Of a stretch of 35,649 nucleotides of DNA, positions 2,289 to 35,649 are shown one piece after another. A program made the position numbers and the translations under genes. The stretch is from Candidatus Nanopelagicales bacterium. Lineage in GTDB: Bacteria > Actinomycetota > Actinomycetes > S36-B12 > CAIYMF01. A model generated the notes under the pieces. That model saw nothing but the letters and a program-made list of their open reading frames with translations, was not told the DNA's origin and made no database searches. Every line of letters starts with the position of its first letter. The first letter of the stretch is position 1. The stretch spans positions 1 to 35,649 of the forward strand of contig JADGOZ010000032.1 of assembly GCA_017882705.1 (NCBI GenBank). The letters are read 5' to 3'.

Positions 2289-2579
2289 TCAGCCCGCCGG
2301 AGCCGCCGCCAGACGCTCCGCCACGAGGACGAACTCGTGGTAGGGGAACACGGTTCCCACGCGTCGCGGGAACGAGAACGATCGCGTGGGGACGAGCCCC
2401 GCGTTCCGGGCCGTGCGGTCGAGCGCGCGGTCGGTGCCGGGCTGTGCGCCCTGACGGGCGCCCGTGTTCGTCGTCGCCCTGCTGCTCCACTCCTCGCAGG
2501 CGCCGTCGTGTCGGGGGTGCTGCCGCGCGTCCTGACCCGAGGTCAGCGTCGGCAGGCCAGTCCTTCTTCGGCTCTCACC
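2289..2579 (-). pseudogene. Probable 5'-truncated SAM-methyltransferase remnant
   Basis: The roughly 308-base gap between two plus-strand GT2 genes holds, on the minus strand, an open frame with a protein-like C-terminus. It reads ALDRTARNAGLVPTRSFSFP, then RRVGTVFPYHEFVLVAERL, then a stop at 2289-2291. This resembles the ends of class I methyltransferases, where an 'AGL..' strand is followed by '..YNEFVVVA'. The frame is closed upstream by a stop at 2580-2582. I see no plausible start codon before the conserved part, and no SAM-binding motif. I read it as the tail of a gene whose front has been deleted or replaced. A chance antisense frame in GC-rich DNA is possible, and only a homology search can settle it. 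Confidence 0.35.
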
Positions 2580-2580
2580 C

Positions 2581-2586
2581 TAGTAT
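2581..2586 (+). promoter_or_regulatory. Candidate -10 box of DPM1-like GT2 gene
   Basis: TAGTAT is unusually AT-rich for its surroundings and ends 8 bases before ATG 2595. No ribosome site lies between, so the mRNA is probably leaderless or nearly so. No convincing -35 box. Confidence 0.45.
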
Positions 2587-2594
2587 TCGGGTCC

Positions 2595-3329
2595 ATGGAG
2601 CGAAGTTCGGTCGGCCGGGTGCTCGTCGTCGTCCCGGCGTGGAACGAGCGCGAGGCTCTGCCGGAGCTGCTGGCCGAGCTGCACGACGTCGTGCCCGATC
2701 TCGACGTGCTGGTGGTGGACGACGGATCCAGGGACGGCACGGCCGACGTCGTGCGGACGTCGGGCAGGGCGCAGGTCCTGGTTCTGCCGTTCAACGTCGG
2801 TGTCGGAGGTGCTATGCGCGCCGGGTTCCGCTACGCCCGCAACCATGACTACGCGACGGTCGTCCAGGTCGACGCCGACGGCCAGCACGATCCCCGCGAC
2901 ATCGCCGGGCTGCTCGCACTCATCGACGACGGGCACGACGTCGCCATCGGTGCCCGCTTCGCAGGCGTGGGCGACTACACGGTGCGAGGCCCGCGCTGGT
3001 GGGCCATGCGCGTCCTCGCCCGTTCCGTGTCGAGGCTGGCGAAGGTCCCGCTCACCGACGTGACGTCCGGATTCCGAGCGAGCGGCCCGGCGGCGGTCCA
3101 CCTGTTCGCGACCGAGTACCCGCCCGAGTACCTGGGCGACACGGTCGAGTCGCTCGTGCTCGCCGGCCGCTCGGGTCTGCGGCTCGGCCAGGTCCCCGTG
3201 GCCATGCGCGCCCGGCGCGGCGGCCAGCCGTCCCAGTCGGCGGTCCGAGCGACCGTCTACCTCGCTCGTGCTCTTCTTGTCCTGGCTCTCGCGGTCGTTC
3301 ACACGAAGCCTGCGGTGTCGGTCGCATGA
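2595..3329 (+). CDS. DPM1-like family 2 glycosyltransferase (polyprenyl-phosphate sugar synthase type)
   Basis: Enzymes of this type move a sugar from a nucleotide donor to a polyprenyl phosphate or related lipid. The 244-residue product has VLVVVPAWNEREALPELL (9-26), VLVVDDGSRDGTADVV, LPFNVGVGGAMRAGF and the metal-binding VDADGQHDPRD. Later come VTSGFRA and a short hydrophobic stretch near the C-terminus (YLARALLVLALAVV). Its length and lack of a large membrane domain match soluble or peripheral DPM1-like members. The stop overlaps the next start (ATGA at 3326-3329), so the DUF2304 protein is translationally coupled. GT2/DUF2304 pairs are common in actinobacterial and archaeal polysaccharide loci. 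The start at ATG 2595 is set by the TAGTAT box just upstream. Confidence 0.9.
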   Translation: MERSSVGRVLVVVPAWNEREALPELLAELHDVVPDLDVLVVDDGSRDGTADVVRTSGRAQVLVLPFNVGVGGAMRAGFRYARNHDYATVVQVDADGQHDPRDIAGLLALIDDGHDVAIGARFAGVGDYTVRGPRWWAMRVLARSVSRLAKVPLTDVTSGFRASGPAAVHLFATEYPPEYLGDTVESLVLAGRSGLRLGQVPVAMRARRGGQPSQSAVRATVYLARALLVLALAVVHTKPAVSVA

Positions 3330-3706
3330 GCCTGACCGTGACGGGTCTGCTCGCCGGCATCCTCGTGCTGCTGCTGACGTTCGAGCTGCTGCGACGTCGC
3401 GCGCTCCGCGAGAAGTACGCGGCGCTGTGGCTGCTCGTCGCGTTCGTCGCCGTCGTCTTCGCGCTGTTCCCCGCCAGCCTCGACCGGCTAGCGTCCCTCC
3501 TCGGCTTCCAGGTCCCGGCGAACCTCCTCTTCGCGCTCGCGGCGCTCGTGCTGCTCGCGGTGTCCATGCAGCTCTCGCTCGAGCTCGGACGGGTCGAGGA
3601 CCAGAGCCAGCGGCTCGCCGAGGAGGTCGCGCTCCTGCGCCTCGACCTCGAGCAGCTGCGTCACGAGCCGCGTCCGGCGCCGCCCCAGGAGCCGGACGGC
3701 GACTGA
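3326..3706 (+). CDS. DUF2304 family small membrane protein
   Basis: A 126-residue protein of unknown biochemical role. It shows three hydrophobic segments (about 5-22, 34-52 and 65-85), with LRRRALREKYAALWLLVAF between the first two, a DUF2304 hallmark. A charged helical tail follows (about 90-115, RVEDQSQRLAEEVALL, likely coiled coil), then a Pro-rich end. It overlaps the upstream GT2 gene by four bases, which suggests equimolar synthesis and a membrane complex with that enzyme. A function as membrane anchor or partner of the glycosyltransferase is inference from this constant pairing. Confidence 0.82.
   Translation: MSLTVTGLLAGILVLLLTFELLRRRALREKYAALWLLVAFVAVVFALFPASLDRLASLLGFQVPANLLFALAALVLLAVSMQLSLELGRVEDQSQRLAEEVALLRLDLEQLRHEPRPAPPQEPDGD
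3671..3698 (+). terminator. Candidate hairpin at the end of the DUF2304 gene
   Basis: CGTCCGGC (3671-3678) pairs perfectly with GCCGGACG (3691-3698) around a 12-base loop, just before the stop codon at 3704-3706. A smaller hairpin, GCCG-CCAGG-CGGC, follows at 3718-3730. Neither has a T tract. The 231 bases from here to the convergent rmlC gene (3707-3937) hold no gene that I can support. Confidence 0.3.
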
Positions 3707-5968: not shown

Positions 5969-8068
5969 TCAGCGTCGGCGCGAGATGACCACGGTGGTGC
6001 CGAGGTCGTGGACCGTCGCCACGGCGACGAAGCACGCGGGGACGGTGGTGGCCGAGGTCACCGCGTAGCGGATGTCGAGGAAGGCGACATCCGGGTTGCA
6101 CACGTCGATCCGCAGCCGGTGCAGGCTGCCGCGCACGGGGAGGATCTGAGCCGGCTTCTCCGTCGGGTCGTTCACCCAGATGTACTTCGCGAAGTTGTTC
6201 CACTCGGCCTCCTGCGCGGGGGCGAGTCGCTCCCAGACGCTGCGGGTCGGGTAGACGGTCATGCCGGTCACCAGTTCGTTGCCCGAGGCCGCGACCACCG
6301 AGGCCGAGCCGACCCCGGCGGTGTCGATCCATCGGGTCGGGCCGTCCTGATGCTCGATCGCCGCGACGGCGTTCGCCAGGGGGCCGTGGGTGAGGGGGCC
6401 GAGCCCGCGGTAGAGGGGGTTGACGATCACGAAGTTGTAGAGGACCACGGCGACGAGGAGCACCGCCGCCGGCCACGTGACGCGGCCCAGGCAGAGGACG
6501 GTCAGGCAGCCGGCCACCACGGCGCCGGCCACGGCGGCCCGCCCGACCCCCTGGGTGCCGGGGTTCAGCAGCTGCGTGGCGGACCACCAGGTCAGTGCCG
6601 CGGCGCCCGCCGCGGCCAGCACCGTGAGCAGGACGACGAGCCACGTCCGACGGATCCGGACCCGTCCTGCGGCCAGGTAGACGAGCAGGGCGGCGCCGAC
6701 GCCGAGCGCCAGGGTCATGCGCGGGCCCGGCACCCGGTCGAGGAGGGTGATCCGCCCGACCAGGTCCGGCACGGGCGCGAGCATCCAGAGCAGCTCCACG
6801 ACCAGCACCACGGTGACCGCCAGGAACGGTGCCCAGCTGCGCATGCTGTCGCCCGCCGGAGGGGCTGCGGCGGCCGCGTCAGCGGTCCCGGCCGCGAGCG
6901 CGTGGTCCGTCGTGCGGCGCCCGCGGATCGTCCGCACGAGCACGACGATCACGAGGATCAGGACGATGAGGAGGACCGGGAGCGAGAACCAGGGCGCGCT
7001 CACCTCGCTCTGGTTGAGCTGCACGGGGGCGCCCGGGTCGAGCGCCAACGCCGTCGGGTCGTCGCTGAGCACCGTGTTGAGCGCCGAGCCGACGAGGACC
7101 GAGGCGTGCCCCTCGCCGGACCCGGACACGCGGTTCCCCGGGTAGATCGTGCCGGCCGTGGCCGCGAGGGCCACCGAGGACTGGTGGGCCCACAGGCCGA
7201 GGACCGCGACCGTCGGGACCAGGGCGCTGACGGCCACGAGCATCACGCGGAGCACGGACGGGCGCCTCGCGACCACGTCGCCGACGACGACCGCCGCCAT
7301 CACCAGACCCACGGACAGGAGCCACGGGGGGTAGAGCACGAAGAACGCCGTGCAGGCGAAGTAGGCGACGACCACGCCGAGCGAGGTCGCGGCCCAGGGT
7401 GACCGGACGCGCAGCGCGACGAGCAGCGCCGCGGTGGCCGCGGCGAGGTAGCCGATGGTCAGGGCCGGCCCGTTGCTCCACCACGCCACGATCGGTCCGA
7501 GCCCCACGACGGCAGCCATGGCCGCTGCGAGCAACGGCTTGCGACGCAGGGCCAGCAGCAGGGCGTACGTGCCGAGCAGCCCGACGGCCACGACCAGCCA
7601 CCAGCGGGCGGCGAACGCGCGCTCGACGCCGAGCACGAAGTAGGGGAAGTTCACCGGCTGGAACGCGGTGGTCAGCGACAGGACCGGAGCAGCCTGGCCG
7701 GCGACGTCCATGTCGGTGTCGGTGAGCCCGATCCACGCGTGCGCCGGGAAGTCCCTGCGGGCGTTGCCGATCTGGACCGGCGTCGCGAGCGCGAACTCGT
7801 CGCCGCGGACCACCCGCGGCGTTCCCGCCACGATGTTCGGGTCGGTGTCGGCGAGCCGGCTGTTGAGCGCCACCGAGCTGCCGTTGAGGTTCAGCCCGGC
7901 GAGGACGCCGACGGCGACGAGGACGAGGACCGGGAGGGCGAGCACGGCGGACCATCTCAGGACACGTCGCTCGCGATCAGGTGCCCCGGCGCCCTGGGTC
8001 CGATCTGCGTCGTCGTCGCGCCCCTCGGTCGTGGTCCCCGGTGTCGACGGGCGGTCTTCGTCCGTCAC
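5969..8068 (-). CDS. Large polytopic membrane protein, probably GT-C-like/DUF7657-type
   Basis: A 699-residue protein that I cannot assign to a reaction. It starts with a charged, disordered-looking cytoplasmic tail (1-45), then a membrane segment. A long first extracytoplasmic loop follows, with [20 protein letters not shown] and [13 protein letters not shown]. About a dozen more hydrophobic segments come after, and a soluble C-terminal domain (about 590-699, including [12 protein letters not shown]). The RGDEF motif after the first helix resembles the actinobacterial family labelled DUF7657, whose layout recalls GT-C transferases with an acidic catalytic site in loop 1. The start GTG 8068 overlaps the rmlA stop (GTGA), so the two are co-translated. 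A role in extracytoplasmic glycosylation or export of the rhamnose-containing polymer is inference. Confidence 0.7.
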
Positions 8069-8934
8069 TCGTCCGGGCCGAGCAGCGCGAGCAGGTAGTC
8101 GCCGTAGCCGCTCTTGCGCAGCGGCTCGGCGAGGCTGCGCAGGGCGTCGTCGTCGAGGAAGCCTTCGCGCCAGGCGATCTCCTCGATGCAGCCGATCTTG
8201 AGGCCCTGCCGCTGCTCGACGACCTGCACGAACTCGCCGGCGGCCATGAGGGAGTCCACCGTGCCCGTGTCGAGCCAGGCCGTGCCCCGGTCGAGCACGG
8301 TCACGGTGAGGCGCTGCTCGCGCAGGTAGTGGTCGTTGATGGCGGTGATCTCGAGCTCGCCGCGCGCGCTCGGCGTGATCTGCCGGGCGATGTCGACGAC
8401 GTCGGGACCGTAGAAGTACAGCCCGGGTACGGCGTAGCTGCTCCGGGGCGCCGCGGGCTTCTCCTCGATCGAGATGGCGCGGCCGTCGGCGTCGAACTCG
8501 ACGACGCCGTACTCGCGCGGGTTGCTCACGTGGTAGGCGAAGACGTGACCGCCTTCGACGGAGGTGTTGGCCTTGAGCGCCGTGCCCAGCCCGGTCCCGT
8601 AGAAGATGTTGTCGCCGAGCACCAGGCACGCCGAGTCGCCGCCGAGGAAGTCGGCGCCGATGAGGAACGCCTGGGCGAGGCCCTCTGGCCGCGGCTGGAC
8701 GGCGTACTGCAGGTTGATGCCCAGGTCGCTGCCGTCCCCGAGCAGCCGGTGGAACTGCGGTGCGTCCTCGGGTGTCGTGATGATGAGGATGTCGCGGATG
8801 CCGGCCATGAGCAGGGTCGAGAGCGGGTAGTAGATCATCGGCTTGTCGTAGACCGGCAGCAGCTGCTTGCTGACCCCCCGTGTGATCGGGTGGAGTCGAG
8901 TGCCGGACCCGCCGGCGAGGATGATCCCGCGCAT
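8065..8934 (-). CDS. rmlA: Glucose-1-phosphate thymidylyltransferase
   Basis: RmlA joins dTTP and glucose-1-phosphate to give dTDP-glucose, the first step of dTDP-L-rhamnose synthesis. The 289-residue protein starts [18 protein letters not shown] with the nucleotidyltransferase signature (GGxGTRL). It continues with [62 protein letters not shown] and [13 protein letters not shown], all standard for RmlA. Upstream codons are open for 25 more residues, but ATG 8934 matches the family start. It also sits 7 bases after a TAGTCT -10 box, so the mRNA is probably leaderless. Its stop overlaps the GTG of the membrane-protein gene. Confidence 0.96.
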
Positions 8935-8941
8935 GCCGCCC

Positions 8942-8947
8942 AGACTA
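8942..8947 (-). promoter_or_regulatory. Candidate -10 box of rmlA, leaderless
   Basis: TAGTCT on the minus strand is separated by exactly 7 bases (8935-8941) from ATG 8934. Those bases lack a ribosome site, so transcription probably starts at or next to the A of ATG. Confidence 0.5.
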
Positions 8948-9034
8948 ACCGGTTCACAGGGTTTCTCCGGCCGGCCCCCTGGCAGGTCGACGGGCTCGAC
9001 CAGGAGCACTTCAGCGACGTTCGCCTGCCCTGGG

Positions 9035-9099: not shown

Positions 9100-11553
9100 A
9101 TGCCTGAGCGTGCCTGGCAGGCCCGGTTGCGTCGCCTCTCCACGTCCCGTGCGAGGTCCCGTGGACCGCTTGATGCGCTGACCCCGAGCCCGCTCGAGGG
9201 CACGCTCCGGATCGCCTACGTCGTGTGGGACTGGCCGGCCCTCTCCCAGACCTTCGTGCTCAACGAGATCCGTGAGCTCCTGAGGCGCGGTCACGACGTG
9301 GTCGTCTACTTCAAGACCAGCGCCGACCCGCAGGCACGACTGACCTTCGAGATCGACGCGCACCAGGTCGAGGACGCGGACGGGCTGTGCCGCTTGCTCG
9401 TGGAGCACGACCGGCAGGTCATGCACTCCCCCTTCGCCTACCCGAGCACGACGCTGCTGGTCTGGCCGGCGTCGACGGCGACCGGGCTGCCCTTCACGTT
9501 CATGGCCGGCGGTGTCGACGTCGCGCACTACGGCAACATCAAGCGGAACCGCGTCGGGGAGATGGCGTCCTCGCCCAGGTGCCTCGGGGTGGTGACGCTC
9601 GGCACGTTCCACCGCGACCTGCTGCTCGAGTGCGGCGTGCCCTCCCACCGCATCGTGATGGAGCGGCAGTCGGCCGAGCTCCCCCGGCCTGCACCGGCGA
9701 GGACGGGCACGACGCGACCCAGGCTCGTCAGCGTCGGACGGTTCATCGAGAAGAAGGGGCTCGAGTTCCTCGTCCAGGCGGCGCCTCAGCTGCCCGACGT
9801 CGACGTCGTTCTCTACGGCTACGGCCCGCTGGAGGAGTCGCTGCGCGCGCTGGCCCTCGACGTCGGCGCCGTCAATGTCGAGTTCGCCGGCCCGATCGAG
9901 GGCCAGGAGCAGCTCGAGGCCGCCTACGGCTCCTCGGACCTGTTCGTGCTGCCCTGCGTGCGTGCCGAGAACGGCGATCTCGACGGTCTGCCGACGGTGA
10001 TCCTGGAGGCCATGGCGGCAGGCGTGCCGGTGGTCACGACCGATGCCGCGAACATCCCGGACCTCGTCATCGACGGCGTCACCGGCTTCATCAGCCGGCA
10101 GCGCGACGTCGACTCGCTCGTCGCCGCCGTACGTCGGGCCCTCGGCATGTCGCCGGAGCGCCGTGGTGCCCTGGTCGGCGCTGCGCGTCGCCAGGCTGAG
10201 GCCTATGCGAACCCGTCGCGGACGACCGAGACGCTCGTGCGGCTCTGGCGCCGGGACTCGATGGACATCGTGCTCGTCACGTTCGATCGCGCGGGCCAGC
10301 GGAGCAGTGCGGACACGTTCGCGATCATCGACCGGCTGCTCCGCTTCACGTCCGTGCCGTTCGGGATCACGGTCGTGGACAACCGGAGCGACGCGAGCTT
10401 CGTGCGCGAGCTGTCCCAGCGATACGCCGCCGAGCCGCAGGTCGACGTCGTCCCGCTGAGGAGGAACGTCTACTGCGGGCCCGCGACCAACATCGGCTTC
10501 GCCCGCGGGCGTTCGCCGTACCTCGTCTACGTCTGCAGCAACGAGGGCTTCGTCCTGCGCCACGGCTGGGATCACCAGATGATCCGTACGATCGACCGGA
10601 CGGGTGCCGCGATGGCCGGGTTCCCCGTCGAGCTCGGCGGGTACCGGACCGGGGCCGAGCTCGCGACGTACCCGTCGTTCAAGCGGTGGCGTTCCCGCGC
10701 GTTCGCGCTCGATGCCCCGGACCGTCGGTTCCGGCACATCCAGGGGGGCCTGTTCATCCTGCGCCGCGACGCCTTCGAGTCGTCCGGAGGGTTCAACCGC
10801 AAGGTGCCGCAGGCGGGGACGGACATCGAGTACAGCCACTACCTCGAGAGCCTCGGGCACACGCTCGCCGCCGTCCCGGGCCTCGTCGGCTGCAGCGCGA
10901 AGACACGACCTCCGGTCCTCAGCCTCGTCGACGAGTTCACGGTCGCGGTGCACCCGTCGAGGGCTGCGACCGTCGGGGTCCTGGACTCCGTGGTCGCACG
11001 GTCGGTGCACCTGTGCCCGTTGTGCGAGTGGACTGGGCCGGCGTTCAACGACGACCACTGCCCGCGCTGCGGCTCAAGCCCTTTCTCGCGGACGGCGATC
11101 CGGCTGCTGAGCCTGAGCGGGCAGCTCCAGACCAGCCCTCGGGTTCGGGTCGTCGCGCGGGAGGACAGCCTGCGGCGGGCCCTGGGGCAGCTCTCCCCGA
11201 ATCTCGTCGTCGACGTGGTCCACGACGAGTCGGCTGCGGCTGCGGTCCTGGACGACCTGAGCGCGAACCCCCCCGGTCTGCTGGTGGTCGACCGCTACTG
11301 GCCGACCGAGGACGGGTTCGCGGGCGTCCTCCCCGGACTCGTGGGACTCGCGGAGCGCGGCGTGCTCGTCGCCGCCGCCGCCGACGTCGGCGCCACGCAG
11401 GATCGGGTCCAGCGCCGGCTCGCGGAGGTCGGCACGTGCGTCAGGGGCGACGTCCTCGACCTCGTGAGCGGGGTCTGCTCCTTCGACCCCTACCCTGCGG
11501 TGCTTCTCGGCTTCCCCTACGGCGACGGTGCGCTCCAGGGGATCGAGTGCTGA
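9100..11553 (+). CDS. GT4-GT2 fusion glycosyltransferase with C-terminal zinc-knuckle domain
   Basis: An 817-residue protein with three parts. Residues about 30-385 form a GT-B/GT4 transferase like WcaL/AmsK: VWDWPALSQTFVLNEIRELL, FTFMAGGVDVAHY, LVSVGRFIEKKGLEFLVQA, then the donor-binding VLEAMAAGVPVVTTDAANIP. From Met388 (MDIVLVTFDRAG) a GT2-like domain begins: ITVVDNRSD, VYVCSNEGFVL, IQGGLFILRRDAF. From about 635 a CPLC...CPRCGS zinc knuckle (Cys639, 642, 654, 657) precedes about 160 residues with VVDVVHDESAA. That end resembles the zinc-knuckle methyltransferase at 14501, but with no intact SAM motif. The start ATG 9100 has AGGAGG 8 bases upstream. The sugar epimerase gene follows after 13 bases. 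Two transferase domains suggest two successive sugar additions; specificities are unknown. Confidence 0.85.
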   Translation: MPERAWQARLRRLSTSRARSRGPLDALTPSPLEGTLRIAYVVWDWPALSQTFVLNEIRELLRRGHDVVVYFKTSADPQARLTFEIDAHQVEDADGLCRLLVEHDRQVMHSPFAYPSTTLLVWPASTATGLPFTFMAGGVDVAHYGNIKRNRVGEMASSPRCLGVVTLGTFHRDLLLECGVPSHRIVMERQSAELPRPAPARTGTTRPRLVSVGRFIEKKGLEFLVQAAPQLPDVDVVLYGYGPLEESLRALALDVGAVNVEFAGPIEGQEQLEAAYGSSDLFVLPCVRAENGDLDGLPTVILEAMAAGVPVVTTDAANIPDLVIDGVTGFISRQRDVDSLVAAVRRALGMSPERRGALVGAARRQAEAYANPSRTTETLVRLWRRDSMDIVLVTFDRAGQRSSADTFAIIDRLLRFTSVPFGITVVDNRSDASFVRELSQRYAAEPQVDVVPLRRNVYCGPATNIGFARGRSPYLVYVCSNEGFVLRHGWDHQMIRTIDRTGAAMAGFPVELGGYRTGAELATYPSFKRWRSRAFALDAPDRRFRHIQGGLFILRRDAFESSGGFNRKVPQAGTDIEYSHYLESLGHTLAAVPGLVGCSAKTRPPVLSLVDEFTVAVHPSRAATVGVLDSVVARSVHLCPLCEWTGPAFNDDHCPRCGSSPFSRTAIRLLSLSGQLQTSPRVRVVAREDSLRRALGQLSPNLVVDVVHDESAAAAVLDDLSANPPGLLVVDRYWPTEDGFAGVLPGLVGLAERGVLVAAAADVGATQDRVQRRLAEVGTCVRGDVLDLVSGVCSFDPYPAVLLGFPYGDGALQGIEC

Positions 11554-11566
11554 GCAGGGAAGCGAC

Positions 11567-12496
11567 GTGAGATACGTCGTCACATCCGGCGCCGGGCTCC
11601 TGGGCTCGGCCCTGTGCGCCGCGCTCGCCGAGCAGGGCCACGATGTCGTCTGCGCCGACCGTCGCGATCGCCTGACCAGCGCCACGGCCCCGCAGCCCGG
11701 CGTGGTGACGGCGGAGTTCGATCTCGCGCGCGGGTCGGCGCCCGACGACCTGCTCGAAGGCTGCGACGTGCTCGTGCACCTGGCGCACCGAGGCCTGCCC
11801 TCCTCGCCCATGCAGGCGGCGGCGCAGGAGGCGGCGGACAACGTCGGTGGCGGACTCCGCCTGCTGGAGGCGGCGCGTCGGCACCGCGTCGGTCGGGTCG
11901 TGTTCGCCTCGAGCGGCGGGACCGTCTACGGCCGCGTGGCGCAGCTGCCGGTCCCCGAGTCGGCCCCTACCGAGCCGATCAGCGCCTACGGCGTCGGCAA
12001 GCTGGCCCTCGAGCACTACCTGCAGCTCTACGCGGCGGACTTCGGGCTGCGGTGCCTGAGCCTGCGGGTCGGCAACGCCGTCGGGGAGGGGCAGTTCCGC
12101 GGCGCGGGGGTCGGGGCGCCCGCGAAGTTCCTCGCCGCCGTCGCGGCCGGGGAACCCCTGTACATCTGGGGTGACGGCTCCGTCGTCCGTGACTACATCC
12201 ATGTCGACGACATCGTCCGAGCCTTCGCCGTCGCGTCCACGGCCGACCTCGAGAGCGGGCCCTACAACGTCGGCTCGGGAGTCGGTCACAGCCTCCAGCA
12301 GGTCATCGAGATCGTCCGCGACGTCTCAGGCCACGACCCGGACGTCCGGCTCGGCGCGTCGCGCGTCTTCGACGTCCCGTCGATCGTCCTCGACGCGACA
12401 CGGTTCATGGCGGCGACGGGCTGGCGCTGCGAGGTCGACCTCCGCGACGGCATGGCCCGGATGTGGGAGCACCTCCGCGCCGAGGCGAGACCGTAG
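11567..12496 (+). CDS. NAD-dependent epimerase/dehydratase (GalE-like SDR)
   Basis: An extended short-chain dehydrogenase/reductase that modifies a nucleotide sugar, probably by C4 epimerisation. The 309-residue product starts RYVVTSGAGLLGSALCAALA (Rossmann GxGxxG). FASSGGTVYGRVAQ holds the catalytic Ser/Thr and YGVGKLALEHYL the YxxxK pair. SLRVGNAVGEGQ, YIWGDGSVVRDYIHVDDIV and YNVGSGVGHSLQQVIEI follow, as in UDP-glucose 4-epimerases. The canonical TGGAGFIG reads TSGAGLLG, a tolerated variant. The start GTG 11567 follows AGGGA and lies 13 bases after the fusion glycosyltransferase, so they probably share a transcript. The product sugar could be UDP-galactose, UDP-galacturonate (with Ugd) or another; the sequence does not decide. 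Confidence 0.85.
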   Translation: MRYVVTSGAGLLGSALCAALAEQGHDVVCADRRDRLTSATAPQPGVVTAEFDLARGSAPDDLLEGCDVLVHLAHRGLPSSPMQAAAQEAADNVGGGLRLLEAARRHRVGRVVFASSGGTVYGRVAQLPVPESAPTEPISAYGVGKLALEHYLQLYAADFGLRCLSLRVGNAVGEGQFRGAGVGAPAKFLAAVAAGEPLYIWGDGSVVRDYIHVDDIVRAFAVASTADLESGPYNVGSGVGHSLQQVIEIVRDVSGHDPDVRLGASRVFDVPSIVLDATRFMAATGWRCEVDLRDGMARMWEHLRAEARP

Positions 12497-12540
12497 TCAG
12501 CGACCTCCTCCGGCCGGTGCCGACCCGACCGACGGGGGGC

Positions 12541-12563
12541 GGCCCCAGGGCGGCCCGGGGGCC
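12541..12563 (+). terminator. Candidate GC hairpin after the epimerase gene
   Basis: GGCCCC (12541-12546) can pair with GGGGCC (12558-12563) in the 122-base gap before rmlB. The stem is short, there is no T tract, and the rmlB promoter starts 8 bases later. Weak support. Confidence 0.25.
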
Positions 12564-12576
12564 ACGAGCCTGCGAC

Positions 12577-12582
12577 TACGAT
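12577..12582 (+). promoter_or_regulatory. Candidate -10 box of rmlBD
   Basis: TACGAT within TGCGACTACGATG lies 36 bases before ATG 12619. The nine bases TGCGACTAC are identical to those ahead of the GT2 gene at 1231. The leader contains CGGGAA (12605-12610) as a modest ribosome site. Confidence 0.42.
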
Positions 12583-12618
12583 GGTCCGACTGTCCGCTTC
12601 TCGACGGGAATCCCTCGC

Positions 12619-13608
12619 ATGCGCATCCTCGTGACCGGGGGAGCCGGCTTCATCGGCTCCCACTTCATCCGCACGGCCCTGTCCACCGCCTACGCAGGGC
12701 TCGAGGGCGCGGAGATCGTCGTGCTCGACGCCCTGACCTACGCCGGGAACCGCGCGAACCTCGACCCGGTCGCCGACAGTCCGCGCCTGCGCTTCGTCGA
12801 GGGCGACATCCTCGACGTCGATCTCGTCGACTCCCTCGTGGGCGAGGCCGACGCCGTCGTGCACTTCGCTGCGGAGTCGCACGTCGATCGGTCGATCACC
12901 GGCGCGCGCGACTTCGTGATGACCAACGTCGTCGGCACCCAGACCCTGCTCGACGCCGCGCTGCGCCGGAACCTCGGGCGCTTCGTGCACGTGTCCACCG
13001 ACGAGGTCTACGGGTCGATCGACGAGGGCTCGTGGCCCGAGACCCACCCGCTGGAGCCGAACTCGCCGTACGCCGCGTCCAAGGCGTCGAGCGACCTGAT
13101 CGCCCGCTCCTACGCGCGCACCCATCACCTCGACGTGCTCGTCACGCGCTGCTCGAACAACTACGGGCCCTACCAGTTCCCCGAGAAGGTCATCCCGCTG
13201 TTCGTGACGAACCTCATCGACGGCGGCACCGTGCCGCTCTACGGCGACGGTCTCAACGTCCGCGACTGGCTGCACGTCGACGACCACTGCCACGGCATCG
13301 CGCTCGTGCTCGCCGGCGGTCGCGGCGGCGAGGTCTACAACATCGGCGGCGGCACCGAGCTCACCAACAAGGAGCTCACCGAGATGCTGCTGGAGAAGAC
13401 GGGCGCCGACTGGAGCCGCGTCGTACCGGTCGAGGACCGCAAGGGCCACGACCGCCGTTACTCCGTCGACATCAGCAAGATCTCCGCAGAGCTCGGGTAC
13501 GAACCGCGCGTGCCGTTCGGCACGGGCCTGTCCGACACCGTGGCCTGGTACCGCGAGAACCGCGCGTGGTGGGAGCCGCTCAAGTCGCGCGCCGCGCTGG
13601 CCCGATGA
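12619..13608 (+). CDS. rmlB: dTDP-glucose 4,6-dehydratase
   Basis: RmlB removes water from dTDP-glucose to give dTDP-4-keto-6-deoxy-glucose, using tightly bound NAD+. The 329-residue protein starts MRILVTGGAGFIGSHFIR. It has VVLDALTYAGNRANL, FAAESHVDRSI and the dehydratase-specific STDEVYG with Thr127-Asp128-Glu129. SPYAASK follows with Tyr151 and Lys155, then RCSNNYGPYQFPEKVIPLF and GDGLNVRDWLHVDDH. These are textbook RmlB features, complete in length. The stop overlaps the rmlD start (ATGA at 13605-13608). The gene has its own candidate promoter upstream. Confidence 0.97.
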   Translation: MRILVTGGAGFIGSHFIRTALSTAYAGLEGAEIVVLDALTYAGNRANLDPVADSPRLRFVEGDILDVDLVDSLVGEADAVVHFAAESHVDRSITGARDFVMTNVVGTQTLLDAALRRNLGRFVHVSTDEVYGSIDEGSWPETHPLEPNSPYAASKASSDLIARSYARTHHLDVLVTRCSNNYGPYQFPEKVIPLFVTNLIDGGTVPLYGDGLNVRDWLHVDDHCHGIALVLAGGRGGEVYNIGGGTELTNKELTEMLLEKTGADWSRVVPVEDRKGHDRRYSVDISKISAELGYEPRVPFGTGLSDTVAWYRENRAWWEPLKSRAALAR

Positions 13609-14459
13609 GCACCGCCCGCTCCGACGGTCGCTGGCTGGTCGTCGGTGCGCTGGGGATGCTCGGCACCGACGTCGTGTCCGCGCTCGCGGGCCGCGAGGTG
13701 ACCGCGCTCGACCGGCCCGAGATCGACATCACGGACGTCGCGTCGGCCACGGCCGCGGTCGCGGGGCACGACGTCGTCGTGAACTGCGCCGCGTGGACCG
13801 CCGTCGACGACGCCGAGACCCGCGAGGGCGACGCGTTCGCGGTCAATGCCGTCGGGCCTGCGAACCTCGCCCGTGCCTGCGCGGACACGGGGGCGTGGAT
13901 GGTCCACATCTCGACCGACTACGTCTTCGCCGGTGACGCCACCGCGCCCTACGCCGTGGACGCGCCCATCGCCCCGCGCTCGGCGTACGGCCGCACGAAG
14001 GCGGCGGGGGAGTGGGCGGTCCGCGCGGAGCTGCCGGAGCGCTCGCTCATCCTGCGCACGGCGTGGCTCTACGGCGCGAACGGCCCGAACTTCGTCCGCA
14101 CGATGAAGGATCTCGAGTCCTCGCGCGAGACCCTCGAGGTCGTCGACGACCAGAGAGGCCAGCCGACCTGGTCGGGCGACCTCGCTGCCCGTCTGGTCCA
14201 GGCGGTCGACGTGGGTGCACCGCCCGGGACCTACCACGCGACCTCGTCGGGCGAGACCACGTGGTTCGGCCTGGCCCGTCGGGTCTTCGAGCTGCTCGGC
14301 GCCGACCCGGAGCGGGTCCGACCCACCACCTCCGACAGGTTCGTCCGACCTGCGCCGCGCCCCGCCTACTCCGTCCTCGACCACCGCGGCTGGGCTCGCG
14401 CGGGCCTGGCTCCGATGCGGCAGTGGGACGAAGCCCTCCAAGCGGCGTGGCCCGTCTGA
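13605..14459 (+). CDS. rmlD: dTDP-4-dehydrorhamnose reductase
   Basis: RmlD reduces dTDP-4-keto-rhamnose with NAD(P)H to dTDP-L-rhamnose, the last pathway step. The 284-residue protein has WLVVGALGMLGTDVVSALAG (Rossmann), VVNCAAWTAVDDAE, FAVNAVGPANLARAC, HISTDYVFAGDATAPY and SAYGRTKAAGEWAV with the YxxxK catalytic pair. LRTAWLYGANGPNFVRTM and DDQRGQPTWSGDLA follow, all typical of RmlD. Translation is coupled to rmlB through the ATGA overlap. The C-terminus ends near a small hairpin at 14454-14471, so rmlBD may form a two-gene transcript. Confidence 0.96.
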   Translation: MSTARSDGRWLVVGALGMLGTDVVSALAGREVTALDRPEIDITDVASATAAVAGHDVVVNCAAWTAVDDAETREGDAFAVNAVGPANLARACADTGAWMVHISTDYVFAGDATAPYAVDAPIAPRSAYGRTKAAGEWAVRAELPERSLILRTAWLYGANGPNFVRTMKDLESSRETLEVVDDQRGQPTWSGDLAARLVQAVDVGAPPGTYHATSSGETTWFGLARRVFELLGADPERVRPTTSDRFVRPAPRPAYSVLDHRGWARAGLAPMRQWDEALQAAWPV

Positions 14460-14500: not shown

Positions 14501-15523
14501 GTGGATCCCCAGTCGCTTCTCTGCCCGTGCTGCGGGACGGCCACCGACGCCTTCGGTCCTGGTCCGGGTCGTCGCCCGAACGCGTGCTGCCGCACGTGCG
14601 GCAGCCTCGAACGGCACCGCTTCCTCGCGTTGCTGCTCGCCGCGATCCGGAACCAGGTGCCCGCCTCCGGGACGGTGCTGGACGTCGCACCCTCGACGCA
14701 GATCAGCTCCCTCATCCGGGACATCGCGCCCGATCGCTACCTGTCCATCGACTTCGACCCCGATGCCGACGGCCGCCTCGTCGACCTGAGGGCGAGCCTG
14801 ACGAATCTTCCGCTGCCTCCTGCGTCGGTGGCTCTGCTCGTCTGCTACCACGTCCTCGAGCACATCCCGGACGACGCCCTCGCGATGCGGGAGATCGCGC
14901 GCGTCCTCGCGCCCGGGGGGATGGCTGTCATCCAGGTCCCCTTCCGCGACTCGGCCCCCACCGACGAGGACCCGTCGGCCTCCCCCGAGGAGCGTGCACG
15001 TCGTTTCGGCCAGGCCGACCATGTGCGCTTCTACGGCACGGACTTCGTCGCGAGGCTCGAGGCCGCCGGACTCACGGTCTCCGAGTACCGCGTGGGGGAC
15101 GTCCTTCCCGACGACCTCAGGTCCGTGATCGCCGGCGTCTCGTGGGAGCGGGTCTGGATCGGCACCTCGGCCGGCACGGTCCCACCCGACCCGGCCGTCG
15201 TGCAGCAGCGTGTCACCTCCGCGCTGGCCGAGGCGATCGCGGTCGAGATCGAGGCGACGACCGGTGTGGTCACCACGGGTCCGGTCGGGTTCGGTGCGAC
15301 CGGGCTCTCCGGGGTCGAGAGCGAGCTGGCCGAGCGCGACGCGGAGCTCGGACGCCTCGCGATGCTGGCCCGGTTCCGGGCCGATCGCGCCGAGGCCGTG
15401 GCCGTCGCGGCCGGTGCGCCGCCCCGGAGCTCGGCTCGCCGTCGGCCGGCGTGGCAGCGCCGGCTCGCGCACGTGCTGCCGGCGAGAGTGCGACACCGCC
15501 TGCGGCAGGGGCGTCGTCCGTGA
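14501..15523 (+). CDS. Zinc-knuckle class I SAM-dependent methyltransferase
   Basis: A 340-residue probable methyltransferase of the sort found among polysaccharide genes, possibly capping or decorating a glycan. An N-terminal zinc knuckle is formed by CPCC (Cys8, Cys11) and CRTCGSLERHR (Cys30, Cys33). The methyltransferase fold follows. Motif I is the family variant VLDVAPSTQISSLI in place of the usual GxGxG. Then come YLSIDFDPDADGRLVDLRAS, LLVCYHVLEHIPDD and VLAPGGMAVIQVPF. The C-terminal third (about 215-340) is acidic, then strongly basic at the end (LRQGRRP), with a helical stretch near 265-295. It begins at a leaderless GTG and overlaps the next gene by four bases (GTGA at 15520-15523). 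The acceptor is unknown. Confidence 0.85.
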   Translation: MDPQSLLCPCCGTATDAFGPGPGRRPNACCRTCGSLERHRFLALLLAAIRNQVPASGTVLDVAPSTQISSLIRDIAPDRYLSIDFDPDADGRLVDLRASLTNLPLPPASVALLVCYHVLEHIPDDALAMREIARVLAPGGMAVIQVPFRDSAPTDEDPSASPEERARRFGQADHVRFYGTDFVARLEAAGLTVSEYRVGDVLPDDLRSVIAGVSWERVWIGTSAGTVPPDPAVVQQRVTSALAEAIAVEIEATTGVVTTGPVGFGATGLSGVESELAERDAELGRLAMLARFRADRAEAVAVAAGAPPRSSARRRPAWQRRLAHVLPARVRHRLRQGRRP

Positions 15524-16404: not shown

Positions 16405-18567
16405 GTGCGGAAACGGCTCGCCCGGGTCGCTCGACGCTACCGGGGGGCCACCGCGGCGGTCGACCGCGTCGTGGCCGCGCGCTACGCGCATCGCGTCGCC
16501 TCGTCAGGTCTCCTCGACCTCGCCTGGTACTCCGAGCTGACCGGGCTGACGTTCGAGTCGCCGAGGCGCGCTGCTGCGCACTACATCTCGGTCGGGCGTC
16601 GTCAGGGCCTCGTGCCGAACCCGCTCTTCGACCCGTCGAGGTGGCGCTCGGGAAACTGGCGCTCGGGCGTGCTGGACCCGGTCGTCCACTACCTCCGGCG
16701 CTCCGGATCGATCTCACCCAGCGCCCTGTTCGACCCGGTGCGCTACCTCCTCGACCACCCTGAGGCGCGCTCGCATCCCGGTGGGCCGCTGGGCCACTTC
16801 CTGTCGAGCGTGCCTGCGCCGCCGTTGCCGGTGACCGATGCCGCGCTCACGCCGCTCCGGGCGTGGGAGGACATCCACCCCGACCTGATCGCCGTCGCGG
16901 CTCGCTGGCGCAACGCCGCCTGGCGAGCACGCCCCCGGCGTACGGCGGACCACGATGCCGCCCTGGGGCGGCAGATCCTCGCCGTGGCCGTCGCTCGCCC
17001 GCTTCCGCAGTCGCCGGACGACCGGCCGCTCGTCTCGGTGATCCTCCCCGCACGGGACCGCGAGGTCGAGATACAGCGGGCGCTCGGCTCGGTGCTGGCC
17101 CAGTCCTTGGGCAGCTGGGAGGCGCTGGTGGTGGACGACGGGTCGACGGACTCGACGCCCGACGTGGTGGAGCGCTTCGCCGCAGCGGATGCACGAGTGC
17201 GCCTCATCCGTCGGCCTCCCCTCGGGGTCTCGTCGGCACGCAACGCCGGCATCGCCGCAGCACGGGGTCACTACGTCGCCTTCCTCGACTCCGACAACCT
17301 CTGGGTGCCCGACTTCCTGAGGGCGATGCTGAGCGAGATGTCGCTGAACGATGCGGACGCGGCCTACTCCGCCGTCGAGCTCGACGACGGCCGCGACGTG
17401 TGGGTGCGCAACTTCGAGGGCGACCTCGAGGACATCAGGTACCGCAACTACATCGATCTCAACGCGCTCGTCGTGCGCCGTGCACTGCTCGACGAGATCG
17501 GGGCCTTCGACGAGACCCTGCGCCGCATGGTCGACTGGGACCTGGCGATCAGGATCGCGCAGGCCGCGTCGATCGGGCACTACCCGTTCGTCGGGGTCCA
17601 CTACGACGACAAGCCCTCCGGCAGCCGCATCACCACCCGTGAGTCCGGCTCGTGGGCCGATGCCGTCATCGCCAAGCACGAGGTCGACTGGATCTCGGCC
17701 GAGGCCGCACTCGACGAGCGCACGACCGGTCGTGTCTCCGTCGTCGTCGTCGGCGGTGAGCCGGCCGAGAGCACCGTGCGGACCGTGCGGTCGGTCCTCG
17801 ACTCGTGCGGAGATGCCGACGTCGAGGTCGTCGTCGTCGGGACGGGTCCGATCCCGTTCTTCTGGGTGACGCTGATCGCCTCCGTGGGTGGCGATCCGAG
17901 ACTGCGGACCGTCAGTCTCGACCAGCCCGTCAACCGGTCGGTCTCGCGGAACCTCGGTGCGACCAGGTCGACCGGCGAGATGATCATGTTCCTCGATCCC
18001 GGGCTGACGCTCGAGCCCGGCTGGGTCACGCCCCTGCTCGACGAGATGGGTGACCCGTCGGTCGTGGGGGCCCAGGCGCTGGTGCTCTCCTCCGACGGCA
18101 CCGTGCGATCGGCCGGGGTCGAGTCGACGGGCGGGTTCGCCCGCCCGCGGCCGGTCCTGGCCGGCGCTCCGGCCGAACGGCTGACGGAACGCGCGCGGGT
18201 CCCCATCGGGGCCGGCAGTCCCGCGGCGCTGCTGATGAGAGCGCGGACGGTGACCGGGATACGCGGTTTCGATCCTGTCCTGTCCGACGGCTGGGCGGAT
18301 CTCGACTTCTGCCTGCGCGCAGCAGAAGGCCGGGCGTCGGGATACGTCCTGCGCACGGACGTACGCGCGACCCAGAGCGTTGATCCGAGCGCTGTGCCGC
18401 CCCCCGAGGAGGTCCGGGACCGAGGCAATCGCCTCGAGTTCGCGCGGCGGTGGGACATCGACGTCGATGCGCTGCTCGCCGGGTCGGCGTCGCAGGTCGT
18501 CAGCCGGCTCGACGCGCCCGCGACGGGATCGACGAGAGGCGCAGGGGACCGGCGGTCCGCTCCGTGA
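16405..18567 (+). CDS. Tandem GT2-GT2 glycosyltransferase with N-terminal WYL/PLFDP repeats
   Basis: A 720-residue protein. Residues about 35-150 hold degenerate repeats: LAWYSELTGLTF, AAAHYISVGRRQGLVPNPLFD, VVHYLRRSGSISPSALFD and PVRYLLDHPEARSHPGGPLG. These match the '..WYL..NPDV..PL.HYL..G..EGR.P.PLFD' repeats of many capsule transferases. A canonical GT2 domain follows (about 210-430): VSVILPARDREVEIQRAL, ALVVDDGSTDSTPDVV, VAFLDSDNLWVPDF, DETLRRMVDWDLAIR. A second GT2-like domain (about 442-690) has VSVVVVGGEPAEST, NRSVSRNLGATRSTGEMIMF and GGxGSPAALLM-like and DGWADLDFCLR segments. GTG 16405 is preceded by GGAGAGG. The gene overlaps the next by four bases. Two sugar transfers, or one active plus one inactive domain, are possible. 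Confidence 0.87.
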   Translation: MRKRLARVARRYRGATAAVDRVVAARYAHRVASSGLLDLAWYSELTGLTFESPRRAAAHYISVGRRQGLVPNPLFDPSRWRSGNWRSGVLDPVVHYLRRSGSISPSALFDPVRYLLDHPEARSHPGGPLGHFLSSVPAPPLPVTDAALTPLRAWEDIHPDLIAVAARWRNAAWRARPRRTADHDAALGRQILAVAVARPLPQSPDDRPLVSVILPARDREVEIQRALGSVLAQSLGSWEALVVDDGSTDSTPDVVERFAAADARVRLIRRPPLGVSSARNAGIAAARGHYVAFLDSDNLWVPDFLRAMLSEMSLNDADAAYSAVELDDGRDVWVRNFEGDLEDIRYRNYIDLNALVVRRALLDEIGAFDETLRRMVDWDLAIRIAQAASIGHYPFVGVHYDDKPSGSRITTRESGSWADAVIAKHEVDWISAEAALDERTTGRVSVVVVGGEPAESTVRTVRSVLDSCGDADVEVVVVGTGPIPFFWVTLIASVGGDPRLRTVSLDQPVNRSVSRNLGATRSTGEMIMFLDPGLTLEPGWVTPLLDEMGDPSVVGAQALVLSSDGTVRSAGVESTGGFARPRPVLAGAPAERLTERARVPIGAGSPAALLMRARTVTGIRGFDPVLSDGWADLDFCLRAAEGRASGYVLRTDVRATQSVDPSAVPPPEEVRDRGNRLEFARRWDIDVDALLAGSASQVVSRLDAPATGSTRGAGDRRSAP

Positions 18568-33706: not shown

Positions 33707-34746
33707 CGACGAAGGTGGCAGTTAACGAGGCAATCCTCACGAGGGGAATCTCAGGTTCTGCGAGGGTCACTGACCATCTGATTGCTGCCCTCAATGAGCG
33801 CCCCGACACGCTGGTTCGTGGCGTTCGTCCCGTGCGCGCGCGGGGACATTCGAAGCTGCTCAATGCGGTGAGTGACGCGCGATGGGATCTCCTACGGGCC
33901 GGGCGGGCAGGGCGTGGCTCTGACCTCCTCGTCTCACCCTGCAACATTGGTCGTCCATTCGGTAGCCAACGACACATGCTCATGGTGTTCGACGTGATGG
34001 TGTGGGAGGCCCGCGAGCTCTTCGATCCGGCCTGGGCGGCGTACGCCCGGGCACTCATCCCGTTGTCGATGCGAACGGCTGACTGCGTCCTGACGATCTC
34101 AGAGCATTCGCGGGCCGCCCTTTCTGCGATCGTTCCCGGGGTCCCTATCCGCATCGTGCAGCCCCCGGCACCGCAGCGACTGAACAGACCGGCGAGCTTC
34201 TCCACCGAGCGCCGCACAGTACTGGTGCTCGGCGAAACGGCTCCTCACAAGAACCATGCGGCCGCCATCGCCGCGGTGGCCGAGGCGCGACGGCTCAGCG
34301 GGGCGGACCTGAGACTCAGGCTGATTGGCCAGCCGGGCCGGGCTGAGGGGTCAACGATCGAGTCCCTTCATGCAGCAGATCCCTCCGGCATCTGGAGCAC
34401 TCGGGAGTCGGGACTGACGGATGATCAGCTGGCTGATGCCCTCGCCAGTGCGTGGGTGCTGCTCCAGCCTAGCTACCACGAGGGCTACGGACTGCCACTC
34501 ATCGAGGCGGCACAGGTCGGACTCCCCGTCGTCCACTCCGGTCGAGAAGGAATGATGGACATCCTCCCCGAGTCGTCCGTGGGCTCGACCGAGAGCGAAG
34601 CCTTCGCGGCGGGCCTGCTGACACTGCTCGACGAACCGGCGTGGAAGGCCTCGTCCGCCTATGGGCTCGCCCGATCGGGTCTGTTCACTTGGGGCAATTT
34701 CAGCGCGGCGGTAGGACGGGCAGTCGACGAGACGCTGGCCCATTAG
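33703..34746 (+). CDS. Family 4 (GT-B) glycosyltransferase
   Basis: A 347-residue GT4 enzyme. It begins KVAVNEAILTRGISGSARVT and has DLLVSPCNIGRPFGSQRHML, ADCVLTISEHSRAALSAI, TVLVLGETAPHKNHAAAIAA and LRLRLIGQPGR. The donor-binding loop is LLQPSYHEGYGLPLIEAAQV then GLPVVHSGREGM. GTG 33703 overlaps the preceding stop (GTGA) and has GGAGG 5 bases ahead. Similar fold and length to its upstream partner suggest two consecutive sugar additions by a co-expressed pair. Its last 47 bases overlap, on the other strand, the end of the polymerase-like gene. Confidence 0.87.
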   Translation: MTTKVAVNEAILTRGISGSARVTDHLIAALNERPDTLVRGVRPVRARGHSKLLNAVSDARWDLLRAGRAGRGSDLLVSPCNIGRPFGSQRHMLMVFDVMVWEARELFDPAWAAYARALIPLSMRTADCVLTISEHSRAALSAIVPGVPIRIVQPPAPQRLNRPASFSTERRTVLVLGETAPHKNHAAAIAAVAEARRLSGADLRLRLIGQPGRAEGSTIESLHAADPSGIWSTRESGLTDDQLADALASAWVLLQPSYHEGYGLPLIEAAQVGLPVVHSGREGMMDILPESSVGSTESEAFAAGLLTLLDEPAWKASSAYGLARSGLFTWGNFSAAVGRAVDETLAH

Positions 34747-35649
34747 GCGTCCCGAACTGCTGGTTGGTTGGTCGCATCGCGAGCGCGATGAGGATCCATG
34801 TCGTGCTGAACCACAGAGTGCTGGTGAACGTCGCAGTCACGGCATACGTAACCGCCAGAGCGATCGCCAACGACCGACGGTTGGCCGGCACTCGGCGGGC
34901 GACCAAGACGACGAACCCGACGAGCAGGCCCACGCCCGCCACCCCCGTGTCGTAGAAGACCTGTACGGGGAGGCTGCCGATGTACCCGGGGACGCCGGGC
35001 AGCGTGGGGTCGTCATGCCTCTGACCGAACGTGTTCACGCCGTTGCCAATGAGCCAGTGCACACCGTGCATGTCGGCCAGCGCCATGGACGCGACGAGAC
35101 GACGGTATTCGAAGTTGTCGCCGAATCCGAAGTGGGTGATCTTGTCGGGCTCTGCCGGAGCAGTGAACGTCGGTGTGGGAGTCGGGCTTGGACTGCTCGA
35201 CGTCGGTGACGCAGATGGCGTCGCATCAGGCCCGGTGCTCGCAGTCGAGGACGCCACAGCAGTTGGCGACGCGATTGGCGCGCTACCGATCTGCCTGATG
35301 GGGCCAGAGAGGGACACGACCGCGAGCCCGATGAGAAGCAGCACCGGCGCCTGCGTGGCCCGCCTCCAGTTGGTGGTCCTCCACCACGAGCGATAGGTGG
35401 CAAGGAGCATGGCCACGAGCCCAAGAGCGAGTCCGACCAGTGAAGCGCGGGTCTGACTGGCGACGATGGCCAGAGGCACGACGAGTGCGGTCGCGACTGC
35501 GACCCAGAGCCTGTCGCCCGCCCTCCAGATCAGGACAAGCGCCCAGAGACCGACGAAAGCAGCGAAGATGTTCGCCTCATACGCCGTGACGTAGGCCGCG
35601 TAGACGTCGAAGACGCCGTCGAACTGAACGCCCCAGAGGAACAGTGAGT
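34700..35649 (-). CDS. O-antigen ligase/polymerase-like (Wzy_C) membrane protein, 5'-partial
   Basis: The minus-strand frame runs open past base 35649, so the N-terminus is missing and 316 codons remain. The visible start (LWGVQFDGVFDVYAAYVTAY then EANIFAAFVGLWALVLI) and VVPLAIVASQTRASLVGLAL match the Wzy_C region, with its conserved S-x-TR-x3 segment. Several membrane helices follow. Between two of them lies an extracytoplasmic loop with a Pro/Ser/Thr-rich stretch (TPSASPTSSSPSPTPTPTFT), then LIGNGVNTFGQRHDDPTLPG and YDTGVAGVGLLVGFVVLVA. Wzy/WaaL relatives polymerise repeat units or ligate glycans on the outer membrane face. Which of the two cannot be told. The end overlaps the convergent GT4 gene. 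Confidence 0.82.
   Translation of the reverse strand, partial: SLFLWGVQFDGVFDVYAAYVTAYEANIFAAFVGLWALVLIWRAGDRLWVAVATALVVPLAIVASQTRASLVGLALGLVAMLLATYRSWWRTTNWRRATQAPVLLLIGLAVVSLSGPIRQIGSAPIASPTAVASSTASTGPDATPSASPTSSSPSPTPTPTFTAPAEPDKITHFGFGDNFEYRRLVASMALADMHGVHWLIGNGVNTFGQRHDDPTLPGVPGYIGSLPVQVFYDTGVAGVGLLVGFVVLVARRVPANRRSLAIALAVTYAVTATFTSTLWFSTTWILIALAMRPTNQQFGTPNGPASRRLPVLPPR

Follow-up and report, generated by a model that had tools for sequence, protein, structure and literature searches.

The window, that is, the whole 35,649-nt stretch of DNA analysed here, contains a gene of 817 codons (9100..11553, + strand), free of stops in translation, which joins a GT4 unit, a GT2-like unit, a zinc ribbon and a methyltransferase-like tail (hereafter the fusion gene), as defined by its open reading frame, Pfam searches and an orthologue. 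The sequence directly 5′ of its ATG at 9100 is GAGGAGGTG, and the Shine-Dalgarno-like GAGGAGG ahead of this codon is a good ribosome-binding sequence. The third-position G+C content is even along the gene, amounting to 83–98 % in each 50-codon block. Upstream and divergent lies a gene for an RmlA-like nucleotidylyltransferase (8065..9009, − strand; PF00483, E = 5.5e-71). Downstream, and on the + strand, there are genes for a GalE-like, NAD-dependent sugar epimerase (11567..12496, directly after the fusion gene; PF01370, 2.2e-49), an RmlB-like dehydratase of the dTDP-rhamnose pathway (12463..13608, with its true start near 12619; PF16363, 2.1e-75), an RmlD-like reductase (13605..14459, within a longer frame that is open from 12171; PF04321, 1.4e-91), a stand-alone zinc-ribbon class I SAM methyltransferase (14501..15523, start codon uncertain; PF08241, 1.4e-10), situated 3 kb downstream of the fusion gene, and a GT2 protein (16405..18567).

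The fusion occurs in five carriers: the window genome, its congener G002, and the alphaproteobacteria Aquamicrobium sp. LC103, G610 and Dinoroseobacter shibae. Comparison of the two actinobacterial copies gave dN/dS values of 0.27 for the GT4 unit, 0.40 for the GT2-like unit, 0.25 for the ribbon (46 codons) and 0.49 for the tail, which shows the weakest constraint; judged from these ratios, every segment of the fusion is under purifying selection. The host assembly, with 3.56 Mb in 194 contigs, is a draft, which would leave room for separate genes having been joined by an assembly error or a frameshift. However, the same junctions occur in G002, whose full-length orthologue is 69 % identical, and in the three distant genomes. 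Because of this orthologue in the genus, the purifying selection on all segments and the recurrence of the core order in the three alphaproteobacteria, the fusion is not an artefact of this kind; the orthologues rule it out, and the probability that we leave to it is negligible.

Two glycosyltransferase units

The GT4 (GT-B) unit covers residues ca. 36–380 (9205..10239, + strand) and is matched by PF00534 (residues 204–356 of the 817-aa product, E = 1.7e-31) and PF13692 (1.1e-30). The Glycos_transf_1 score, 109.5 bits against a cutoff of 26.4, bears out the complete GT-B unit proposed in a preliminary description made from the DNA alone. The E-x7-E motif appears as D295-x7-E303, a conservative change of Glu to Asp that is the same in all five carriers, and the nearest solved structures are GT4 mannosyltransferases.

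The second unit (residues 388–627; 10261..10980, + strand) is a divergent GT-A domain. Its match to PF00535 (residues 410–560, E = 5.9e-5) is weak and borderline, with 23.5 bits against a cutoff of 23.3, and the orthologue from G002 scores 13.1 bits, below that cutoff. Alignment with canonical GT2 proteins showed that their NND is replaced in the fusion by C-S-N-E-G (479–483) and that DNxSD is retained. Across the five carriers, [SG][NK]E uniformly takes the place of the metal-binding triad NND/DxD, with G and a conserved HGW coming next; on account of this replacement we designate the unit GT2-like. The GT2-like unit that the preliminary description had placed from Met388 is thus supported by a Pfam score above cutoff, but not by the metal-binding triad typical of the family, and it may not be a normal catalyst. 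The channelling of a growing glycan between two active sites, as suggested in the preliminary description, is a speculative possibility. If it were also non-catalytic, the protein would be a single-activity GT4 enzyme with two accessory domains; the altered triad and the reduction of the ED pair to xD, the preceding Glu not being conserved, are consistent with this. Nevertheless, an acidic residue (E) is still found at the third metal-binding position, conservation extends to the DN..S motif and to D575, the catalytic-base Asp, and the dN/dS of the unit is 0.40; we consider a non-catalytic second unit somewhat unlikely.

The zinc ribbon and the tail

The four cysteines of the ribbon (C639, C642, C654 and C657; 11014..11070, + strand) are invariant in the five carriers. 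The C-terminal part of the fusion gave no Pfam match above cutoff. A hand-written consensus of zinc-ribbon methyltransferases, used as a query, retrieved real enzymes of this type in plasmids; in the host genome its best match was at position 14522 of the window, and it also matched the fusion's own ribbon at 11014. Profile comparison of the five tails with four stand-alone zinc-ribbon methyltransferases gave a probability of 92 (E = 6.7e-7), rising to 95.5 (E = 1.6e-8, 67 columns) with eight of them, compared to E = 0.6 for an epimerase control. The 67 columns take in the ribbon together with the helix that follows and the first strand, extending ca. 35 residues past the ribbon. Like the zinc-ribbon class I SAM methyltransferases, the fusion has a CxxC...CxxC ribbon with a following Arg and helix. 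The preliminary description had taken this region as a zinc-knuckle end domain that might act as a substrate or partner module; the ribbon is real, but it opens a methyltransferase-like module that had been missed.

The remainder of the module, without the ribbon (residues 658–817; 11071..11550, + strand), did not show significant sequence similarity to the zinc-ribbon methyltransferases in profile comparison (E = 0.11), and methyltransferase ancestry beyond the ribbon region therefore rests on the fold. An AlphaFold2 model built from four tail sequences, leaving out the row from the plasmid collection, reached a pLDDT of 76 and a pTM of 0.75 and is Rossmann-like, with alternating strands and helices, although one strand-helix unit of the usual class I fold is apparently missing. 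Among its best matches with Foldseek and VIA-align, class I methyltransferases predominated, one of them the sugar C3-methyltransferase KijD1. VIA-align Z values were at most 7.7 for what is a modest model, and values in this range may reflect a common arrangement. A full-length model from two sequences was poor (mean pLDDT of 42) and was used only for the secondary structure of the tail. The tail does not appear to be an extension of the GT2 fold, since the Pfam GT2 match goes no further than residue 560 and the tail forms a domain of its own in the model, in agreement with the separate C-terminal part described previously.

The ribbon and tail could instead be an unrelated zinc-ribbon/Rossmann-like module, of other than methyltransferase ancestry, that recognises the glycan or a membrane partner, as might fit the absence of a significant profile match for the tail alone and the weak likeness of the ribbon profile to generic zinc ribbons (RecR, rubredoxin). 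This appears improbable, given that the profile match does not stop at the ribbon but takes in the helix and strand that come first in the tail, and that the structural neighbours are mostly methyltransferases.

All eight stand-alone enzymes contained a motif situated after the central strand, HVxEH, which none of the five fusion tails has. Because this otherwise invariant motif is absent, the tail is probably a non-catalytic or altered relative of the methyltransferases, although the loss of HVxEH does not prove a loss of activity. The ribbon and first strand do match active-looking enzymes, and WsaE unites two rhamnosyltransferases with a methyltransferase (PMC2943079), so the tail might still methylate sugars and thereby cap or decorate the chain, like the N-terminal domain of WsaE. 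We regard this as quite improbable in view of the missing motif in every carrier, the strand-helix unit apparently missing from the fold and the full methyltransferase encoded nearby in four of the carriers.

Distribution and gene neighbourhood

Only one of the ten other genomes of the genus, G002, carries a fusion orthologue; apart from it, the orthologue was absent from the remaining relatives among the 148 genomes searched. The same core order was found in Aquamicrobium sp. LC103 (46 % identity), in G610, which belongs to the same family, and on plasmid pDSHI02 of D. shibae, where the product (WP_012187257.1) is annotated only as ‘glycosyltransferase’. N-terminal to the core there is an ordinary GT2 in Aquamicrobium and G610 and a second GT4 in D. 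shibae. These three homologues (L068:13806-17753, − strand; L067:9069-12866, − strand; L050:9379-13287, + strand) also contain, ahead of their first GT unit, N-terminal repeats with the pattern YL..NPDV..AG.NPL.HYL.HG..EGR. The fusion architecture is rare, since no further example was identified in nearly 2000 genome searches, which rest on overlapping samples and a partial sampling of genomes. Searches at class and phylum level yielded other GT2 or ribbon matches and no additional fusion, and no relative was found in the viral contigs and phages searched. Weak tail matches in other genomes (L012–L015) had interruptions, lay out of frame or proved unrelated.

The single polypeptide of the preliminary description, with GT4, GT2-like and zinc-ribbon parts and ca. 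160 further residues (ca. 155 in the present analysis), agrees with the Pfam matches, the conserved cysteines and the orthologue. Its order recurs in G002 and the three alphaproteobacteria, and few homologues share this architecture, which had been called unfamiliar; none of known function was found, and we found no paper describing a GT4, GT2-like, zinc ribbon and tail arrangement.

The preliminary description overlooked that the gene clusters with those of an epimerase and of a true zinc-ribbon methyltransferase, as it does in four of the five carriers. The neighbouring epimerase is conserved in G002 (67 % identity), G610 (37 %) and Aquamicrobium (32–33 %). The methyltransferase of the G002 cluster is 56 % identical to that of the window; in G610 the gene immediately follows the epimerase gene, and in Aquamicrobium it lies about 2 kb further on. 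None was found on the plasmid searched in D. shibae. A second zinc-ribbon methyltransferase of Aquamicrobium (L082:499-2148, − strand) lies in an open frame of 550 residues, the second half of which resembles another methyltransferase. Among the 11 genomes of the genus, a methyltransferase match including the ribbon occurred only in the two fusion carriers, the other nine matching at most the generic methyltransferase core; were both genes distributed independently, the chance of finding them in the same 2 of 11 genomes would be 1 in 55, and the two are also linked.

When the GT2 domains fused in Aquamicrobium and G610 were compared with the window proteins, the product of 16405..18567 was by far the best match (E = 1.7e-44, next 1e-3; and 1.8e-33, next 1.8e-9), and its homologue is likewise a separate gene in the G002 cluster. 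Its occurrence as a fused domain in one lineage and as a gene of its own in another suggests that this GT2 acts jointly with the fusion protein.

The surroundings of the fusion gene are rich in GT, rml and UDP-sugar dehydrogenase genes. The nearby rmlA, rmlB and rmlD, together with the dehydrogenase gene, suggest a surface polysaccharide that contains rhamnose, although these genes do not reveal the donor of the fusion protein. The same cluster encodes a protein with DUF7657 and DUF7654 (5969-8629, − strand). Elsewhere in the window, a GT2 gene (2337-3706, + strand) is overlapped by a DUF2304 gene, a notable pairing for a polysaccharide cluster, and a weak Wzy_C/O-antigen ligase match (34700-35479, − strand; 28.1 bits against a cutoff of 31.7) lies by the contig end.

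Proposed function and closest known systems

We propose, with a probability of about 0.65, that the fusion codes for a cytoplasmic multidomain polysaccharide glycosyltransferase whose C-terminal module descends from zinc-ribbon SAM methyltransferases and serves in recognition or docking rather than in methylation. The GT4 unit would add one of the sugars in the repeat unit of a surface glycan, and the diverged GT2-like unit would either form a second linkage or hold the acceptor chain. The ribbon and the Rossmann-like domain, having probably lost methyl transfer, would recognise or dock a partner, possibly the stand-alone zinc-ribbon methyltransferase. The protein would most plausibly work with this enzyme, with the GalE-like epimerase for donor supply and with the GT2 encoded alongside. 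Tentatively, and we think this more specific proposal rather unlikely, the tail could be a pseudo-methyltransferase that derives from the same family as the neighbouring enzyme and, by pairing with it, directs methylation to the growing chain end bound by the GT units; elongation would then be coupled to modification or to chain-length control. If the tail does dock the methyltransferase, this would provide a testable route for coupling the growth of a glycan to its methylation in bacteria. The small conserved gene set comprising the fusion, the epimerase, the zinc-ribbon methyltransferase and the GT2 is common to actinobacteria and alphaproteobacteria.

Joined GT units and methyltransferases are known to make and terminate such chains (PMC2943079, PMC11231755). 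WsaE, from the S-layer glycan of Geobacillus stearothermophilus, has two rhamnosyltransferase domains and an N-terminal methyltransferase (PMC2943079), and thus resembles the fusion, by its described architecture, in uniting two GT units and a methyltransferase-type domain within a rhamnose-containing glycan cluster. However, the methyltransferase of WsaE is N-terminal and active, whereas the fusion carries its module at the C-terminus, with a zinc ribbon in front and no HVxEH. Likewise, ORF6 of the Klebsiella pneumoniae O7 cluster is a large multidomain protein with a methyltransferase and two GT modules, encoded beside rml genes (PMC11231755) as is the fusion, but it has an N-terminal methyltransferase-kinase and a coiled coil, and its GT modules are C-terminal. 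The stand-alone zinc-ribbon class I SAM methyltransferases (from Aureibacter, Salinibacter and Leisingera, and that of the window) share the ribbon, the conserved Arg, the helix and the first strand with the fusion, whose tail differs in being shorter, in the absent motif and in being joined to two GT units. A further close system, WP_012187257.1 from D. shibae, has the order GT4, GT2-like unit, zinc ribbon and tail with 37 % identity over 653 residues, but an additional GT4 stands at its N-terminus, and no zinc-ribbon methyltransferase gene lies near it on the plasmid. Since a few distant bacteria share the core order, in most cases with the same partner genes nearby, the fusion is best read as a real, rare and conserved domain combination, a variant with a new tail of the known multidomain polysaccharide glycosyltransferases of the WsaE and ORF6-O7 type. 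It widens the range of multidomain polysaccharide polymerases by a previously undescribed set of domains and, as it stands, represents a modest extension of known biology.
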